Source of the DNA: a virus
Strand: one strand, 5' to 3'
Virus record (IMG/VR): IMGVR_UViG_3300021963_000021
Coordinates: 186,001 to 250,000 of that record
DNA length: 64,000 nucleotides
Part shown: piece by piece, positions 15,947-51,387 of the stretch
Layout: every line of letters begins with the position of its first letter
How positions within the stretch are numbered: position 1 is the first letter of the stretch
Notes under the pieces: model-generated
What the model saw: only the letters and a program-made list of their open reading frames with translations
What the model was told of the DNA's origin: nothing
The model's database searches: none
Made by a program: the position numbers and the translations under genes

Positions 15947-18900
15947 TATACTCTTCCTACGACGATTTCAATTGTACCAATTCTATCGCTGTCATAATCT
16001 TCCAGCGCCTTGCCGATTATTGTACCTGGGCTAGCAACAGTACCTGCTGATATCGCAATACCTGCGATACCGCTGGCAACTATTAGATCGCCTTTCTTAA
16101 CTTTACCTACTACCTTAGTTGGAACACGACCTTGTAGTGCTACGCAGGTCCTTGTGCCTTGTTGTTCGGAGTTTAGAACAAACGCAGGATTAGTTGTTAC
16201 TACACCGGCTACTCTAGTTGTTGCGGCTTCGTTGCACAGTGTAATCTCAGAGTCACCGCCGAACATTACTACAGTTCCGGGCTCGTATTCTTTGTCTGAA
16301 GCATACCACTCTGCTAAGTCAGCCCAAGTAGCACTCATTCTAGACCCAGCATTTACGTTCCAATAACCAGAAATGTACCCGTTGGTTAATACACCGCCTG
16401 TGGTTGTTGACGCAAGTGTACCGCCTTTGACGTCAATGACACCGTTGGTTAGTCCGCCAGTATCTGTGAATCTATGTTCACGAGCAATGTATGAAGTATA
16501 CTGTCTAGCTGATGTTGAGCCATCATTTAAACGTATACCTGAACCACCATTGCCGTTTCTTACTAATGTGTAGTAGGAACCAGTCGCGCCGTCGTCTAAC
16601 ACTCTAGTCAATGATGAAGTAGTAGTTGAGTTGACTGTGAAGTTAACCCCGTCACCGGCATTGATCCCACCGGTTAGTGTTATCGATCCGCTGGAAGTAA
16701 CACCCGTGGTAGTCAATGCTCCTATAGCAATTTCACCGCTTGGGCCACGTTGTACGATAGTATTATTAGCATTAGAGCTGCCATAGGTCACAGTGGTAAA
16801 TTTACCTGTACCGGTTCCTGTTGACGACCTAACAACAACACCGATACTTGGAACTTCAGCTCGACTTAGTCCGTCGGCATCCTCGACAATAGTTCTAGCG
16901 TCAATTGGTACAACAGCACCTGTTGGTGTTCCTGTTGTTGGAACACCTCGACGACCTAGTACCTTTGTTACTGTGCCAGACAGTGATGTTTGGTCTGTGG
17001 CATCATACACGCTAGGATCGATGTGAGCAAGTTTAGCTCTTGATATACCTGTAGTAGTTGATGTTGCGTCTTTTAGTGCTAGGAATCCGTTGACAATAGT
17101 AAACTCTGTGTCCTTGGCGCCTGACAGCATACCATATAGTCTTACTTTTGCTGAGCCACTGATTACACCACCGCCGGATGTATTTGCTGGAATATCAAAA
17201 GTATCAGTTGTTACGTTTGAAATTTTCCAGTCACCGTTGATCGCAGTTACAGTAGTTTCACCAGAAATAACAACTACGTTGTTGTTGCTAAATCCGTGAC
17301 CAGCAGCAGTTATCGTGGTAGACACTGTGGTATTTGCTGTGTATGCTGTTACACTATATCCGTCTGCTGTAGTTGCTTTCGCAGTGTTCAACGCAAGTTT
17401 GTGTTGACCAATCGCAGCATCGTAATTAATATCTGCGTCGACAATAGTGTTGTCATTGATTGTGGCATTGATAGTTGTACCACTTCTAGTAAATGTTAGA
17501 TATCCGCCGACTGTGGCGTTGGTAAAGTTTGCTCCAGTGCCAGTAAACACTAATATATCTGAATTAGATACACCGTATGTTGGCGAGCCTGTTTCTGGTC
17601 TCCAACCAGATGGACCATCTTCTAAGTTAGCCATCTTCATGAAGAATCTTGGAACAGCTTCTTCACCGCCTGCTATACCCTGTCTCGGTTGTGGTAAGTT
17701 AAGCACACGGTTGTCGTCCATGTCCAAGTTGCCCTTCATAGACAACTCACCGTTCAGTGCTAGGTAACCTGGACCAATCAGTCCGTCAGTTACACGCACA
17801 CCAAAGTGTGATAGACCTAAACGTCTATCGATATATGTTCTTGTAGCATTTTCTGTTGGCACTGCCTGTGAGTCTGGAAGTCCAGAACCTCCCAATGAAG
17901 TGTCATTAGAGAATTCAGAAATTTCTTGACCTTGACGTAGACGTAAGCTGTCAATACCGCGCAAGTTAATGCTAGCATCAAGAGTTACCTGTCCAGTACC
18001 TTGGTCAACAGCAAAGAAGTCACCGACTCGGAAGTTACCTGATTGGTCAGTGCTTACAAAGAACACACGTCCTTTGCCCTTTTCAATTACTTGATTTTCT
18101 TTGTCCGGAGTGTTAGCCGGAGGTCCAAAGATGTTATTTGGATAGTTAGTATCAGCATAAGAGCCAGTACCGATATCTAAGAAATCGTGTCCTGTTGCTC
18201 TCATAGTTGAAATATTAACAGTAATATCACCGACAGCACCTGCTCTGATACCAGAGTTTAATGTTAGGTTACCGTTGCTGGCATTAACTGAATATGTTAG
18301 ACCACCTAACACCTGTAGAGAACTTGTTCCGCCGCTGAACACACCGAACCCAGTGCTGTCTAGCGTCATAGTCAATGCTGAATCTGTGTACAGCGCAAAA
18401 TTGGTATCGGAAGTGACTACTACAGCCATAGAGCCGCTGGCATCACTTAATCCGTAGACTGTGCCGCCTGTTGTGGCAGTTATCTTAATAGTGCCAGCAC
18501 CTACGGTATGAATAATGTATGTTTCATTGGCAACGATGCCGCCAAACACTACACCTGAGAACACAATTCTTTGACCAGCAGCCAGCCCTGCAGTTGAACT
18601 AACAGTGATATTATCTGTAGATGCTACAGTAGCTGTGGCAGTTATGCTGTAGGTCAACGGATTCACATAATAGGTGTTACCGTTTAACTGAGTCATGCCT
18701 GTAACACCGGTAAACTTGATTCTTCTACCAGCATTTAGATATTGCTCAGTTGATGTTGTGATAACGCAGGGATTGGCCTTGGTAGCTGCTGATACTGTGG
18801 CAGTTCTAGTTACCGCTAACGGATTTGTTAAATTCCTAAAGGTCAATACGCCAATTGGGTTATTTGGATCTGCTGAGTTTACATCATAACCTGTGATTTC

Positions 18901-21900
18901 ATAGACAGAATCTTGATAACCGAAAATATGTCCACCTGTGCCAGTAGTAGATCCGTCGTAGATCGCAGCACCTGTGATAGGATAAACAACACGTTGGCTG
19001 TCTACGAATGATAGTGTCTGTACGGCAATCTGATCATCACCTGTGTTGCCAGACCATGTTGGAACAGTAAATGATGTACTGCCTTCTAACACTGGTAGGT
19101 TAACGTAGTTGTATCCATCTTTACTGCCTACAATAACATCTGCGGTAACTGCGTCAAGTCCTTCGTATTGTGTAAAGCTAAGAACACGTATGGTGTTGGT
19201 TCTATCCTCGTTAAAGATCAGCGCAGTAGAAGGTCTTGTGGCAACGATTTCTTCCTTGCCAGCTATAACAAGTTCTTCGTTTTGACGTATGATTACAGGT
19301 TTACCATTTGGTATGTCGATAGCTAGACCAGTCTGTCCTGTGACTAATCCTAAGCCCAGTGAGCAAACACCGTCTGGTAAATCTTGTGTACTAGCGGTGT
19401 TGATAACGTAGGTCTTAAGACCAAGACGAGTATTGCCGCCTGGATCACCGGTGTGATCGATATCAACAAACGAACCACTTCTTGGAACATACTGATAGTT
19501 GGACACATATAGTGTCAATTCGCCCTCGGCATTGGTTAAATCTAACCCTGGATTTGTATATGCGCTGGCCGTCTGTATCAGAGGGAATTTCAATGATACT
19601 ATGTCTGGAACTTCGTTGGGGTCAGCACCTTCTGCTTTTAGACCGTAGAACCCGTGTGCTGATGAACCGTTCAACGCACGAATCTGCGCACCGTTCAACG
19701 CATACATCGCTGTGTAGCAATAGTAGGTAAACATTGACACAGATTCGATCAAGCCGTTGTTCATAGCAAAGATGCCATAGCCCATGTCGTTGACCTGCGT
19801 AAAGTCATTGCCTAGCATCGACTTGTTACCAGCAGTACCGATAATAATCTTACCACGTCCGTTGCTGACAAAGTCTACAACTGTGGCCTGTATGTTACTG
19901 ATTTCAGCAACCACTAAGTTTCTTGCGCCCTGTAGTGTGGCACTTTGACCTGTGATAGTTGGGTTGACTGTGGCAGTGGCAGTATCATAGTCGCCGTCGG
20001 CAACATAATCTATCAACACATCTGTTAGTGTGTTTGTTCTTGTAGTTTCACTAGCAGATGCTGCTGGTAGTGCTACGTTTTGATTTAATATGTTTCCAAC
20101 TGACTTAGTCCACGATGTGTTGTCGTTGACAACTACATAACCTAATACAGTTTTTAATCTAGCTAAGGCAGCAGCAGTCTTTGCTTCTTGACCTAGGATA
20201 ACAGTTCCACCTGTTGCTAGTGCGCTGTAATAGGCTTCGGCGGCATTCTTGGTTAAGCTGTTGCCACTGTAAAGTATATCATAACACATCGCATCGATGA
20301 TATATCCTACGTCTCTAGAGCAAGCCGCTCCGTCGATGACATCTGAAGATGTAAATGGAGCAATGTTACCTGCTTTTTGTACATTAATCCAAGCAATAAT
20401 TTCTGCTTGAATAAACGCCTTGTTAGCAATTAATATATCCTTGGCCTTGACTTTGTTGTCAGTGCCGCTCATTCCTGTCGGTGTTGGATATGTTATAGCA
20501 GGAACAGATGCTGTTCCATTTTCTATAATATCTCTGATCAGCAACATTCTATCGCTGATTGTATTTCTAGCAGCAGAATATGTTCCTGGGTTTAGAAGTT
20601 TCTTAGCTTCTTCTTCAGCTTTGATGATAGCATTAAGCGTAGCAGTTAACTGATTTGTTGTAACATCAACGGCATATGATCTTAGATATGCTCTTCCTGC
20701 GTTGATAGATTGGAAGTTAGATCCTAACACCATGTCATATAACACAGCATTAACAATCAAGCCAACGTCACGAGAACAATATGTTTCATCATAGGCAGCG
20801 GCAGTTGCTCCGTAGAAAGGAGTATCTAACACGCATTCGTATTGTGGATAGATGCCTGGAACATCTGCGGTATTGCCATCTTGAACTAGTGTTTGGATGT
20901 AACTGATCGCGGTGTTTATGTTATCCGTGATGTTGGCATCAAGTAGATCTTGAGCTTCTAGGTCAATGTCAGTGGCCTGTTGGAACGCAAGTTTGTGTCC
21001 GGTTCCTGTGCCAATACTGGTTATGTTAATTTCAATAGAAGTGTTAACTTCTTTTTCTCTGGCAATCACCAGTTCCAGCGAACGATATAGTTGTACAGTG
21101 TTACCATCAAGCACATAGATGTAATATGTGCCACCGTCTGTTAGCGGACCTTCTGTAGCAGACATTGGTGTGCCACCTTCTGCTGTGTAAACAACTCTTG
21201 ACCCGTTGGTAAAACTATGACCAGGTATAGATATAGAGTTTGTTACTAAGCTAACATCGTTGATAGGATTGAATATTTTAGAAGTTCTTAAAACACTTGG
21301 TGGATCGTTGTTAACGATCTGTGTCATCAAATATTTGCCATACTCGATCGCATCAATAGTTTCGTCGACTTGATCAGCTGGGAATACACGACCAGATTGT
21401 CTAAAGTGTGCGTGACCTGCTCTTAGTGAGTTATTAAAATCACCAAACAAGTCGATAGACACAGCATCAACGATAAATCCAGTGTCACGCTTACACAGTG
21501 CTTCGTCGTAATCTAAACTTGGATAAACTGTATTGATGTATTCTATAACTTCTGATTGTATAAGTTCTTTGTTAGACTGTAGCAGTGATTTGGCTTTATA
21601 GATTTTTTCGCCGTATCTTACAATAACTTCTATGATATCAAAACAATTTCCAAGCACAGTTTCAGCAAGGTCACCGTCAGTGATTGATGGGATGGTTGTC
21701 TGTACTACTGTTCCTACTGCTGGCCATAGATCTTGATTGATTACATAGGTTGCGATTTCTTTGGCTTTAGCTATAGCGTCAGCAGTCTGCGATACCTGTC
21801 CAGATACTACAGTTGCTCCGTTGTTGAAATACAAACGACCTGCTTGTGTACTGTTAATGTAACCGCCATAAAGCACATCTTGTACAACAGCATCGACAAT

Positions 21901-42394: not shown

Positions 42395-43281
42395 ATCCTC
42401 TCCATAAAGTTTCTAACCCAGGCCAGACGAGCTTGCTCGTCCATGGCTGTGTATTCAACAATGTTGGCACGGATAGCATCTACTAGTGGATAGTATTCTT
42501 CGTCTAGTTGGTGCTTGATATCTTTGTTCAAGTCCACTAACTTGTCTGTACGTGGATTGCGAGCAACCCATTTTGAAGTCAAGTAGTAAGGGCTCTTGAT
42601 CTTAGCACTCACACCATCTTCTGTATAGAATACATAACCTTCGTGTTTACATTCCTTGGCCATTGCTGATAGTCGTGCCATGTTAGTTGTTACACTTTCT
42701 GGCACAAAGCATCCTAGCACACGACTCATTTCCATTAACATGAACGGATCATGTTCGACTATAGAGTTCCATTTGTTTTCACGATAGCCTAGGATGTACA
42801 TGCCTTCCTTTTCAGGAACGATATGCGGGTCGTTACGGTGAACGCACTCAAACATAAATGTATATCCTTGCCAACGATCACACAAGTCAAAATACTTTGT
42901 TTCGTCGATCAGTTCACGTGCCATTTTAACATAGTCGCTGTCTGTGCTACCAGTAGTAGACACCAACAGTTTGCCGTTATGATAAGTCATAGCAACCATG
43001 AATCCGTTGACTTTACGAAATGCTGTAACTTTGGTTTCTGGAGCAAGCACTGGTGCTTCCTTTTCGATGCCATAGTTATAGATTTTAGTAAATGGGTATG
43101 TCACTAGATTGAAGTCAGTGTCTACAATGGATCCACGACATTCCGCAATAAAGGGATTCCACAGACTATCGTAGAACACTTTCTTCTTGTATTTGAGCAC
43201 GTAGATACCTTCACCAGCTTCTTTCATATTAACTAGGTTGCTGGTTTCTACATACTCCTTCAGCTCATCTTTAAACATCAT
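42391..43281 (-). CDS. RNA ligase, T4 Rnl1 family
   Basis: 296 residues. Nucleotidyl-transfer motif I is AFRKVNG (KxxG, with Lys as the AMP acceptor). Further motifs are YTFMFECVHRNDPHIV (IIIa), EGYVFYTEDG (IV) and AKIKSPYY (V). T4 Rnl1 seals tRNA broken in the anticodon loop by host nucleases. The C-terminal domain is present but shorter than in T4. It is the last of a phosphoesterase-kinase-ligase gene set with ATGA coupling to the kinase. Confidence 0.88.
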   Translation of the reverse strand: MMFKDELKEYVETSNLVNMKEAGEGIYVLKYKKKVFYDSLWNPFIAECRGSIVDTDFNLVTYPFTKIYNYGIEKEAPVLAPETKVTAFRKVNGFMVAMTYHNGKLLVSTTGSTDSDYVKMARELIDETKYFDLCDRWQGYTFMFECVHRNDPHIVPEKEGMYILGYRENKWNSIVEHDPFMLMEMSRVLGCFVPESVTTNMARLSAMAKECKHEGYVFYTEDGVSAKIKSPYYLTSKWVARNPRTDKLVDLNKDIKHQLDEEYYPLVDAIRANIVEYTAMDEQARLAWVRNFMERI

Positions 43282-43739
43282 GTTCTCCAGATTTCTTTAT
43301 AGCCTTCTTCTTCAGTTGGCCATTCAAAATTATCAATCATGCTGCGGACAACATGATCGGGGATTGATTTGCCAGGGCGGCTAGCCAAACGACGAGCGTG
43401 TTCTTCGGCAGACGGAGTAGGAAAGACCACAGCGATGTGCCAGTAGTCGGGTAACATACGGAACTTTCTAGCACGACTTTTTACAGTTGTGTTAGTTTGG
43501 TCCCAAATGATATCTCGACCTGCGGCCCTAGCACGAACTACAGCGCGAGTCATTAGACGAACAGCACGTGGCATTACTTCGTCAAAGACTTCGTTGTAGG
43601 TCTTGCCTAGGCGTTTAGCAAACTTTTCTACATAGACATCGGTGGAAATATATTCCATACCTACTGCCCAGGTTTGGCCTGCCAGCCATGTAGTTTTGCC
43701 ACTAGCCGGCACTCCAACTAAAATATATGCTTTAGCCAT
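43278..43739 (-). CDS. Polynucleotide-kinase-like P-loop kinase
   Basis: 153 residues. Walker A GVPASGKTT at residues 8-16, a D..N segment (IIWDQTNTT) and a lid with R residues (ARRLASRPGK) match T4 PNK-type 5'-kinases; the phosphatase domain of T4 Pnkp is absent. It would phosphorylate 5'-OH RNA ends before ligation. It is coupled to the phosphoesterase gene (8-nt overlap) and the ligase gene. Confidence 0.82.
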   Translation of the reverse strand: MAKAYILVGVPASGKTTWLAGQTWAVGMEYISTDVYVEKFAKRLGKTYNEVFDEVMPRAVRLMTRAVVRARAAGRDIIWDQTNTTVKSRARKFRMLPDYWHIAVVFPTPSAEEHARRLASRPGKSIPDHVVRSMIDNFEWPTEEEGYKEIWRT

Positions 43740-44280
43740 GATGTGATTTTACCTCTCCGGTCATTGCGTCTGCGATTGCACGTTCCATAGTAACAGCGAT
43801 CATTCCTGTCGCATCCATGCCCATATCACGACAGCGATAACGTTCCATTCCACTGGTACCACCGTGTAAGTGTCCGTGGAAATGAACAGCACCTCTGTGC
43901 ATTTGATCCCATTCAGCGATAGGATAATGGAACATAACTACCCTAGTTTTTTCATATGTCATACACAAGTACGGATGTACTTCTGCGAAACAACTACGAA
44001 ACACAGGGTCGTTTAACAATTTGCGATCGTGGTTGCCCTCGATCAAAATTTTTGTACCATTTAACCGACGCATGATGTTTACTGCTTTTGCCGCAGGCAA
44101 GAACGCAACATCACCTAATATGTAGACTGTGTCTTCCGGAGCGATAGTGTTATTCCATTCCAACACCATTTGCTCGTTCATATAGTCTACATCGTTGTTA
44201 AATCTTGCTCTCGACTGTGGACAGAATTTCATGATATTGGCATGCCCAAAGTGTAAGTCACTGGTTATCCATGTAGTCAT
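43732..44280 (-). CDS. Metallophosphoesterase
   Basis: 182 residues, calcineurin-like. The metal-binding motifs are SDLHFGH (D-x-H), GDVAF (GD), EGNHDRK (GNHD) and HFHGHLHG (GHxH). Position and the neighbouring kinase and ligase suggest a 2',3'-cyclic phosphate or 3'-phosphate removing step on RNA. In bacterial Pnkp the phosphatase is also of this family. Other phosphodiesters cannot be excluded. Confidence 0.85.
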   Translation of the reverse strand: MTTWITSDLHFGHANIMKFCPQSRARFNNDVDYMNEQMVLEWNNTIAPEDTVYILGDVAFLPAAKAVNIMRRLNGTKILIEGNHDRKLLNDPVFRSCFAEVHPYLCMTYEKTRVVMFHYPIAEWDQMHRGAVHFHGHLHGGTSGMERYRCRDMGMDATGMIAVTMERAIADAMTGEVKSHHG

Positions 44281-44688: not shown

Positions 44689-45204
44689 TTAGTCCCAATC
44701 TTCCTCACGTTGCGGAGGAACCCAAATTTTCTTGTTGCCAAGCTCGTCGTATTCAAAAGCAACACCATTAATTGTGTGAGGCTCGTTTTCGTCATACGTC
44801 CAACCAAGCACTTTCATCATCTTGTGTTTGACCATTAAGTTGGGGCTACGAAAGACTTCAGTATCACGGAAGCCCATCATTACGCCGACTTCGCAGACAG
44901 CACCCGAACGACAAACACCAGCAACACAATGTACAACAACATTCATTCGTTGTTCCATTGCGTGTTCTAGCAGTCTCACTAGTTGTTCTGCTTGCTGATC
45001 AGTGACTTTGAATTCTTCGCCCCATTTGTCATCTCGTTCTAGATCTAAGAACTCAAACTGATGAGTTTCTTTGAACTGATGCCTAGGAGTAGGAAACTCC
45101 ATAGCAGGATCTACGATCTGTATCAACATAGAGTTGATACCAGCATCAATATGATGACCTTTCGGAATGTCTGCCAACGCTACGTTTTGTATCCAAGGAT
45201 TCAT
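44689..45204 (-). CDS. Dual-specificity protein phosphatase
   Basis: Start at ATG 45204 (SD GGAG); 171 residues. The active site is HCVAGVCRSGAV (HCx5R-S), with a general acid Asp likely in FLDLERDD. Cysteine phosphatases of this class remove phosphate from Ser/Thr/Tyr or from RNA 5' ends. Here the neighbours are a release factor and RNA repair genes. A promoter at 45372-45400, inside the release factor gene, could drive it separately. Confidence 0.85.
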   Translation of the reverse strand: MNPWIQNVALADIPKGHHIDAGINSMLIQIVDPAMEFPTPRHQFKETHQFEFLDLERDDKWGEEFKVTDQQAEQLVRLLEHAMEQRMNVVVHCVAGVCRSGAVCEVGVMMGFRDTEVFRSPNLMVKHKMMKVLGWTYDENEPHTINGVAFEYDELGNKKIWVPPQREEDWD

Positions 45205-45206
45205 TG

Positions 45207-45884
45207 TTATCTCCATAGTAAGTCAAAGTTACCTTTGAGAACAGTAGAACATTTTGATCTACAACCAGTTAAATGATCTTGAACAGAGTCATCTTGGAAT
45301 CGGTAAGTGCGGATTTTATCTCCACGCATACCTGATCCTACCTGTTGGCGTCTATCACTTGCTATACTATTATTATACGATCTTTTGAGTTCTAAGTCAA
45401 TGCGCTGTTGTAAAGTTGCCATAGCTTCGTTGTAGCTATTTTGGCGACTTCGGCATTCGGCTTTGGCTATTATACCTGTAGGAAGGTGTGTGATGCGGCA
45501 GCTATTTTGGTGCTTGTTCCGAAATTGTCCACCCGCTCCTGTACCGCTGTACCATTCGATCTTGAGATCGTTTTTGGTAACAGCAACAGAGTCAGGATCT
45601 GGAGACCCGTCTATGACAGCGACGGTAACAGTTGAAGTGTGGACACGACCTTTTCGTTCGGTCGGAGGCACTCGCTGGATACGATGACCACCGGGCTCAT
45701 TATCTAAGCCTGATAGATCTACACCCTCTACAAGTATCGAACACTCGCCAGGACGTACATCTATCAGGCGGGTAGTTCAACCCAGTTTATTTCCTAGTTT
45801 TTGGTAAGCGGTCGCGAGATCACTTACGAATAGTTTACTATCTTCGCCGCCTTCTGCGGCACGGATTTCAATAGTGCGTTTCAT
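45207..45884 (-). CDS. prf: Class I release factor (RF1-type) with in-frame UGA
   Basis: ATG 45884 has a strong SD (AAGGAG, 6 nt). The protein begins KRTIEIRAAEGGEDSKLFVS, matching the RF1 segment IRAGTGGDEAALFAG, and so lacks RF1 domain 1. Codon 36 is TGA (45777-45779). The same frame continues with homologous sequence: GGHRIQRVPPTERKGRVHTS, with PPT at 73-75 in the place of the PAT anticodon-like motif, and GTGAGGQ (GGQ at 118-120). Total length is 225 codons including the UGA. Counting from the conserved Tyr27, the UGA falls where RF1 has Trp. The P-x-T tripeptide predicts recognition of UAA/UAG. A functional protein needs readthrough. Confidence 0.82.
45372..45400 (-). promoter_or_regulatory. 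Sigma-70 promoter inside the release factor gene
   Basis: TTGACT (45395-45400), 17-nt spacer, TATAAT (45372-45377). It points toward the phosphatase and RNA repair genes. Confidence 0.65.
45777..45779 (-). other. In-frame UGA codon of the release factor gene
   Basis: Context GGT-TGA-ACT. Both sides are homologous to RF1 in the same frame; both other frames meet stops within about 5 and 22 codons. Possible recoding site read by Trp tRNA. Confidence 0.75.
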
Positions 45885-46099
45885 GGTTTTCTCCTTTTAT
45901 ACCAACTGTACTTGTCACCATTTGGTAACAGACCGTTGTTAACAGAATCGGCGCCAAAGACGCCGACTATTTCCATACCGTCACCGTTTATGGTAACAAG
46001 TATGCCTAATTCTTTTGCGAAAGCCATTGCTTCCGATAGATCTTTTACTGCTTCCACACAACCTCTACCCGTTGTGTCATTCCATTTTACTTCATACAT
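45881..46099 (-). CDS. Small protein, unknown
   Basis: 72 residues, mixed composition, ending YSWYKRRKP. Its TGA overlaps the release factor ATG (ATGA). An ATAAATA element (46104-46110) lies immediately before the start, so a leaderless late transcript is possible. No family recognised. Confidence 0.5.
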   Translation of the reverse strand: MYEVKWNDTTGRGCVEAVKDLSEAMAFAKELGILVTINGDGMEIVGVFGADSVNNGLLPNGDKYSWYKRRKP

Positions 46100-48189: not shown

Positions 48190-49254
48190 AAGATCTATTC
48201 TGAAACACACTGGCTGTTGCTTGTCATTGTCTTTAACTACCTCTCGGTGGCGGTAGACCAATGTGTTTTAGAATAGTGTTAAGACTGAGATTACATCTTA
48301 ACCATAAGCACCTCTAGCATTACCGTACACCTTGCGAGCATACGTTCTCTAGATATCCACTGAGCCCTATTGCTAGGTATCCCAGTCTGCTTACAGTATC
48401 GCCGTTTTAAGTCAGGCAGTAGACTTGACGCCATATGCTATTCTACACCATCTATCCCGTTAACCTTGCGAGCTATTCGAGTGCGCTAACACTCTACGAA
48501 ACTTCCAGTATAAACTAATGTCACCTTGCGAGCTTCATTAGACTTGATTGTGTTACCACTCAAGTATTAGATACTTTTCACATATGACCGAGGCAGTCTT
48601 TGCGTTTTTGTTTAATGGCTGGAGTTGAACCAGCAACATTCTGTTTAATAGACAGACGATCTACCATTGATCTACATTGCAACCTACCGTGATGAGCTAC
48701 CTCTGTTGCTGTATACTCTTTTGGAATACACAATACAACTCACCACATACCTTTCCTCTCGCGGAGTAATCAGTGATGTTTCACGACCAGTGTCCTGCGT
48801 CAAAACAGTCCACCGCCCATTTACATTGCGCTAAAGCCCTTAGGAGCGACCCCTCGGACAATAACACTACCCTTTCTCATACCAGTTAATAAGTTGGTTT
48901 TGTATGGAAGTCAGCACCACCTGTTACTTTTCACGCACCCTGGTTCCCTTGCGGGCCAGTCGATACGCATTCTTCCCCATACACTTACTTGGCTGTTACA
49001 TCCACCGGTTTTGTCAGTGAACGCATCCTCACGGATGTGAGCAGGCTTGTTTACACGAACCATTGCTGGCGCTAGTATGTAGGCATTCTAGCTTTGGGTC
49101 GATCGCTCGACTTATTCTTCGTAGACGGCGGACCGCCTACAGGATGATAAACCACCCTAGAATTTTTAAACCATATAAAAACACACTCACGGACATGGCT
49201 TGTTGGATGCAGCCTGCCTAACCGAACCAACTTCGGCAGTGTGTTTTTATATGG
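48190..49254 (-). ncRNA. Large ornate structured RNA candidate (GOLLD/ROOL-like)
   Basis: About 1.06 kb without a coding frame, between tRNA-Leu and tRNA-Val. At the 5' end (minus strand) a perfect 17-bp helix (49171-49187 with 49238-49254) holds two hairpins. Their loops GTTGG and CCAAC are complementary and could kiss (49222-49236 and 49197-49214). The 3' end has a 19-bp helix with two mismatches (about 48194-48212 with 48259-48277). In the middle the 11-mer GCTCGCAAGGT occurs three times, near 48333, 48468 and 48528, two of them in clear hairpin loops. A degenerate tRNA-like domain lies inside (48611-48681). Large RNAs of the GOLLD and ROOL classes occur in phage tRNA arrays and GOLLD can contain a tRNA. 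Class assignment is inference. Confidence 0.55.
48611..48681 (-). tRNA. Degenerate tRNA-like element (ATT anticodon)
   Basis: A D arm (GATC/GATC), an anticodon arm (TCTGT-CTATTAA-ACAGA) and a T arm (GCTGG-TTCAACT-CCAGC) are present. The acceptor pairs in only 5 of 7 positions and there is no CCA, unlike the canonical tRNAs here. An ATT anticodon is unusual in bacteria and a normal tRNA-Asn(GTT) exists at 49755. Likely a pseudo-tRNA or a domain of the large structured RNA. Confidence 0.5.
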
Positions 49255-51313: not shown

Positions 51314-51387
51314 TGGCACCGGACCAGAGACTCGAACTCCGACGAACGGTTTTGGAGACCGTCATGCTGCCATTACATCAGCCCGAT
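51314..51387 (-). tRNA. tRNA-Trp (CCA)
   Basis: Acceptor ATCGGGC/GTCCGGT, anticodon stem ACGGT/ACCGT, loop CTCCAAA, encoded CCA. Reads UGG and could misread UGA, relevant to the release factor gene. Confidence 0.93.

Follow-up and report, generated by a model that had tools for sequence, protein, structure and literature searches.

An in-frame UGA in an RF1-type release factor gene of large phages and its candidate recoding by readthrough or frameshifting

How can a release factor gene be expressed when a stop codon interrupts it, and is the interruption functional? At the locus described here, the ribosome must read past a stop signal to build a protein that itself reads stop signals. The locus lies in a window of 64,000 nucleotides, which corresponds to positions 186,001 to 250,000 of the 363,943-base virus record IMGVR_UViG_3300021963_000021; coordinates below refer to this window. 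An initial annotation, made from the sequence, had noticed that codon 36 of an RF1-type release factor is TGA, at the position of an RF1 Trp, and had suggested a regulatory switch that differs from the +1 frameshift of bacterial prfB. The observation was right and is more interesting than stated, and the interpretation is partly supported. The analysis adds a stem-loop that begins 7 nt past the UGA, bacterial relatives that share this UGA, further relatives with a prfB-type frameshift, and an RNA-repair neighbourhood.

The interrupted release factor gene

The gene is located on the minus strand, from 45884 to 45207, and comprises 225 codons if the UGA at codon 36 is read as Trp. Its reading frame starts with the ATG at 45884-45882, runs for 35 codons to the TGA at 45779-45777, and continues for 189 in-frame codons to a TAA at 45207. 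The translation is MKRTIEIRAAEGGEDSKLFVSDLATAYQKLGNKLG-UGA-TTRLIDVRPGECSILVEG and onward up to the TAA. A strong Shine-Dalgarno sequence, AAGGAG (45891-45896), precedes the ATG, as had been noted, and is retained in relatives. Read through the UGA, the product contains the Pfam domains PCRF (5e-21) and RF-1 (4e-19), and RF1 is its nearest match by sequence in a PDB search (2e-39). An AlphaFold model of the factor (pLDDT 83.5) has a TM-score of 0.83-0.87 to most ribosome-bound RF1 structures.

Both the PxT recognition motif and the GGQ motif of canonical RF1 are present. The tripeptide "anticodon" is of the RF1 type, PPT (P73-P74-T75, 45660-45668), with the conserved H82 after it, and the GGQ motif for peptidyl-tRNA hydrolysis spans residues 118-120 (45525-45533). 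The recognition residues Q70, PPT and H82 are invariant or nearly so across the phage set. From its PPT tripeptide the product is predicted not to read UGA, in agreement with the initial annotation. The factor has no N-terminal domain 1 and thus departs from canonical RF1 (prfA); it scores 192.8 bits with the canonical RF1 profile, for which the cut-off is 400, and matches only positions 107-333 of 347. No second gene with an RF-1 domain was found in the record.

The TGA at codon 36 was found in every related phage locus from IMG/VR that covers this codon, 38 of 38 and a further 51 of 51, with relatives reaching down to 56% protein identity. All 90 phage copies, the window and its 89 relatives, therefore carry TGA, and none has TGG. 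The aligned residue is Trp in 38 of 39 canonical RF1s and Phe in the remaining one. The base that follows the UGA is A in the window, and A, G or C but never U among the relatives listed. Pairwise dN/dS has a median of 0.12 over codons 2-35 and of 0.15 over codons 37-225, so both sides of the UGA are selected as one protein. The locus thus displays a conserved stop with protein selection on both sides, as in the readthrough class. The frame is identical on both sides of the UGA in the window and in all 89 phage relatives, and the frame change at a CUU-UGA site is not seen there. Frameshifting within the window was considered and rejected: a +1 shift after GGU meets a stop four codons on, and a -1 shift abolishes the RF1 homology.

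A sequencing error or a decayed gene could in principle account for a single in-frame stop in a metagenomic assembly, and most of the sequences compared are metagenomic. The same TGA in 89 of 89 phage loci and in bacterial relatives, the low dN/dS on either side and the conserved start, Shine-Dalgarno sequence and catalytic motifs make such an accident extremely improbable. Judged from these alignments, the UGA is conserved far beyond chance and the gene that carries it is not decayed. The pattern that the initial annotation had named as a refutation, ordinary Trp codons in homologues beside a clearly broken copy in the window, was not borne out.

Equally hard to sustain is the view that UGA means Trp everywhere in the phage or its host (code 4), with nothing programmed at codon 36. 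Huge phages with related truncated factors do read TGA as Trp. In the present phage, however, TGA is an ordinary stop, as had been claimed, and ends 86 of the 270 ORFs of at least 150 amino acids. Reading the record with code 4 opens little extra coding sequence, and code 15 likewise brings a small gain in coding density; no tRNA-Trp(UCA) was found. Every relative has one TGA only inside the release factor gene, and some of them end this very gene with TGA. A reassigned code is accordingly given very little weight.

A stem-loop 3' of the UGA

A conserved 62-nt stem-loop (45708-45769), which we consider a putative stimulator of readthrough, is separated from the UGA by a 7-nt spacer, ACTACCC (45770-45776). 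Around the UGA a small stem (45770-45783), whose 3' arm falls within the spacer, is partly conserved, with 68% of cells paired. Over 87 nt the minimum free energy is -43.1 kcal/mol, with a z of -7.2 against dinucleotide shuffles, none of 200 being as good. Covariation was counted on 65 aligned relatives. The stem-loop has 142 double-change cells that are still paired, against 58 ± 10 in shuffled alignments, which do not preserve relatedness, and at most 55 in slid versions, which do; the covariation score is 0.222 versus 0.148. Under a null that keeps protein and codon usage fixed, structure along the gene peaks at codons 37-65 (mean z -2.3), and many of codons 37-60 show suppressed synonymous change. 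Among 40 candidate sites in the 364-kb record, defined as a TGA that ends a frame of at least 25 codons and is followed by at least 80 open codons, the structure downstream of codon 36 is the strongest. RNAalifold on all 65 sequences gave a weak consensus (-2.1 kcal/mol, 12 pairs), because several divergent members build the inner stem differently; stronger evidence comes from the covariation counted on the named structure. No Rfam model matched the element. Raised synonymous conservation was also observed at codons 91-101 and 162-178 of the gene (window about 45350-45614).

A conserved RNA structure at a fixed short distance 3' of the stop is thus present in the phage lineage, and is weaker in the alphaproteobacterial relatives described below. 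Their downstream structures are shorter and variable, with z from +0.1 to -4.3. The long hairpin is therefore a feature of the phage lineage and not a constant one. In viral readthrough with 3' RNA structure, as in MLV, alphaviruses and plant viruses, a stop codon is followed by a short spacer and a stable stem-loop or pseudoknot. The likeness to the present site is in layout only, since here the ribosomes are bacterial and the gene encodes a release factor. If confirmed, the element would be a conserved 3' readthrough signal acting on bacterial ribosomes.

A UGA with a conserved hairpin immediately after it is also the layout of bacterial selenoprotein genes, and the hairpin could be taken for a bacterial SECIS element that directs selenocysteine insertion. 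At this site, however, RF1s have Trp, and relatives without UGA have Trp, Tyr, Phe or Leu; Cys never occurs. Neither SelB nor a gene for tRNA-Sec was found in the phage record. SelB also scored above its curated cut-off in none of seven UGA-bearing alphaproteobacterial genomes, some of which are MAGs; matches below the cut-off are presumably other translation GTPases. We regard selenocysteine as a most improbable reading of this codon and, together with sequencing error, a pseudogene and a genome-wide UGA=Trp code, as largely excluded.

The hairpin might instead govern initiation or transcription, with the locus yielding two products: a leader peptide of 35 residues, and a C-terminal domain translated from an internal start. 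A GTG start is available at 45671, and relatives in Variovorax are annotated in two pieces. This arrangement is nonetheless improbable. Codons 37-71 are conserved as RF1 protein ahead of any plausible internal start, the hairpin has no U-tract, and its position is locked 7 nt past the UGA.

Relatives with readthrough or frameshift sites

Bacterial relatives were collected in one scan of bacterial genomes. TGA occurs at the same place in seven alphaproteobacterial chromosomal or MAG loci, and Thalassospira, Jiella, Gemmobacter and Rhodovibrio are among the bacterial relatives that have it at the position of codon 36. Plasmids of Bosea sp. RAC05 and Rhizobium leguminosarum keep it as well. In the Variovorax relatives a TGA divides the annotation into two genes, and annotation will render genes of this kind as pseudogenes or as split ORFs. 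Among 385 genomes of the class of the Thalassospira relative, the matches listed included no further UGA-bearing copy and only stop-free RF1-like genes, so the gene looks sporadic in that class. No further relatives came from a scan in which the most distant phage member served as the query.

In myxobacterial and other relatives, the C-terminal part of the factor is offset by +1 from the N-terminal part. Nearly all of these sites read CTT-TGA or CTT-TAG, and many have CGG-AGG three bases before the CTT, as in prfB; UAG is used by four members. Chromosomal copies with the prfB-like site include L163-L168 and other myxobacterial loci. The tripeptide is altered to PPN or PPG in some frameshift-type members, which hints at altered codon recognition. 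In the relative from Hahella the codon aligned with the UGA is TGG (Trp), and a CTT-TAG site for +1 frameshifting follows six codons downstream. In a quick tree of 69 proteins, the family splits from canonical RF1 and RF2 with an SH-aLRT of 100, and the UGA-readthrough members form one group with Hahella at a support of 98. No such recoding site is present in one myxobacterial MAG copy (L129) or in the huge phages with TGA read as Trp.

With UGA readthrough in one branch and +1 frameshifting next to the same site in others, the need for recoding appears to be kept while the mechanism changes. This swap is the strongest argument, from sequence comparison, that recoding itself and not merely the UGA would be functional. 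The earlier contrast with prfB accordingly holds for the window and the phages, where the frame does not change; for the family it is weakened by the relatives that use a prfB-type +1 shift next to the site. As a separate observation, three huge phages (L043, L045 and L047; LR745206, LR756502 and LR756501) have related truncated RF1-like genes with in-frame TGAs. Such codons fit a code with UGA=Trp, under which termination would need no more than an RF1-type factor.

Release factor genes that undergo recoding are already known from prfB and from R726 of Mimivirus. In prfB, which encodes RF2, an early UGA also blocks a release factor gene and makes recoding necessary (PMC5009743), and the myxobacterial relatives have a prfB-like site, typically CGG-AGG-NNN-CTT-TGA. 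The window differs from prfB in that it keeps the frame, has a 3' hairpin in place of the 5' Shine-Dalgarno-like element, and encodes an RF1-type factor. The idea that a bacterial release factor could be controlled by readthrough of its own early UGA predates the sequencing of prfB. A 2016 review of recoding describes such early-stop readthrough as absent from sequenced bacterial RF2 genes and an RF1 counterpart as unknown (PMC5009743). The nearest precedent is the release factor gene of Mimivirus (R726) and Megavirus (mg280), in which an early in-frame UGA is read through, probably as Trp (PMC3521657). These viruses, like the phage, have a viral tRNA-Trp with a Hirsh-like adenine in the D-arm, and CUU-UAG-C frameshifting also occurs, as in the Hahella relative here; a stem-loop comparable to the 3' hairpin of the phage is not reported in the text searched (PMC3521657). 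Theirs is a class-I protein of eukaryotic/archaeal type from a eukaryotic virus, whereas the present one is of the bacterial RF1 type in phages and bacteria. A description of the present family was not found in the open-access literature. A natural family that appears to use UGA readthrough in a release factor gene, and to swap it for frameshifting, makes the old idea directly testable.

Decoding of the UGA and a possible role in ribosome rescue

Given a conserved UGA in place of the Trp, selection before and after it, a conserved hairpin in the phages and +1 frameshifting in relatives, we consider it probable that hairpin-stimulated readthrough with Trp insertion produces the RF1-type factor in competition with termination by RF2. 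The complete domain-1-less factor, which would act on ribosomes, would be made only if ribosomes pass the programmed UGA, and the stem-loop would favour this event. A near-cognate tRNA-Trp(CCA) would insert Trp and restore the RF1 residue, while termination by host RF2, which would compete with this tRNA, would leave a useless 35-residue peptide. As cited in PMC7918605, UGA readthrough in B. subtilis goes up from 6% to 19-54% when prfB is mutated. Since RF2 would compete at the UGA and prfB mutations raise readthrough, we propose that more factor is synthesised as UGA termination slows.

By analogy with prfB, the factor could instead terminate at the UGA itself, despite its PPT, and so limit its own synthesis. 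Nearly all members of both recoding types use UGA, and some frameshift members have PPN or PPG tripeptides. Against such autoregulation, Q70, PPT and H82 hardly vary in the phage set, and the UAG in four frameshift members indicates that reading of UGA is no fixed requirement. This alternative is unlikely, though less so than those considered above. An RF1-type factor should not terminate at UGA, which makes the sensor logic odd and gives no reason to expect simple prfB-like autoregulation. The RF1-type motif makes cross-sensing of RF2, or of general termination stress, likelier than strict autoregulation.

The phage encodes the tRNA-Trp(CCA) mentioned in the initial annotation (51314-51387, minus strand), a possible helper of the proposed readthrough. 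As read from the cloverleaf, its D-stem contains the pair U11-A24, as in the Hirsh UGA suppressor, and the tRNA-Trp genes that flank relatives appear alike. A24 occurs in ordinary tRNA-Trp of other bacteria too, and the bacterial relatives do without a phage tRNA, so the link is suggestive only. Because chromosomal relatives retain the UGA, the phage tRNA cannot be a general requirement. Two other tRNA genes were noted. At 48610-48681, in a cluster of 28 tRNAs, lies a tRNA-like gene called as tRNA-Asn, whose anticodon, AUU, is unusual. A lone tRNA with a CUA anticodon, called tRNA-Pyl by ARAGORN and possibly an amber suppressor, lies at 19529-19603 of another record of about 339.5 kb (L066), whose coding density is not markedly raised by reading TAG as sense.

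Downstream of the factor on the same strand, the next gene encodes a dual-specificity/tyrosine-phosphatase-like protein (44689-45204) that also lies close to the factor in the majority of related phage loci. The neighbourhood scan further identified a calcineurin-like metallophosphoesterase (43732-44280), a polynucleotide-kinase-like P-loop kinase (AAA_33, 43278-43739) and a T4 Rnl1-type RNA ligase (PF09511, 42391-43281), all on the minus strand. Homologues of these four proteins lie close to the factor in many related phages, and in one of them (L100) factor, phosphoesterase and ligase are consecutive. Directly upstream of the factor in Novimethylophilus, whose copy is a distant relative of the frameshift type, lies a fusion of kinase, phosphoesterase and ligase. 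RNA-repair genes were not found beside the alphaproteobacterial copies scanned; the link to repair is thus supported in phages and one bacterium only.

A comparable association is known for PrfH and RtcB2, in which a factor without domain 1 frees peptides from ribosomes that have been damaged and RtcB2 joins the RNA again (PMC9223846, PMC6514570). PrfH (RFH), like the phage factor, is a class-I factor that lacks domain 1, has GGQ and adjoins RNA-repair genes (PMC1586002, PMC9223846). The phage factor differs from PrfH in that it retains the RF1 PxT and is recoded, and it scores 38.7 bits with the PrfH model TIGR03072, well below the curated cut-off of 166.65. RtcB was not seen among the eight neighbours scanned in the phage, where the Rnl1-type ligase takes its place beside the kinase and phosphoesterase.

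When translation is attacked, the factor would probably rescue ribosomes together with the neighbouring RNA-repair enzymes. The suggested sensor would then couple failure of termination to ribosome rescue and RNA repair in the conflict between phage and host. A broader reading, for which we see about even chances, is that large phages, alphaproteobacterial plasmids and chromosomes, and myxobacteria share a family of rescue factors linked to RNA repair. Its members would be recoded next to one site, by hairpin readthrough in one branch and by prfB-like frameshifting in the other, and failing termination would be the switch for ribosome rescue. Another component of ribosome rescue, a permuted tmRNA gene (Rfam tmRNA_permuted, 137 bits), was observed at 18510-18888 of another phage record of about 298.5 kb (L064).
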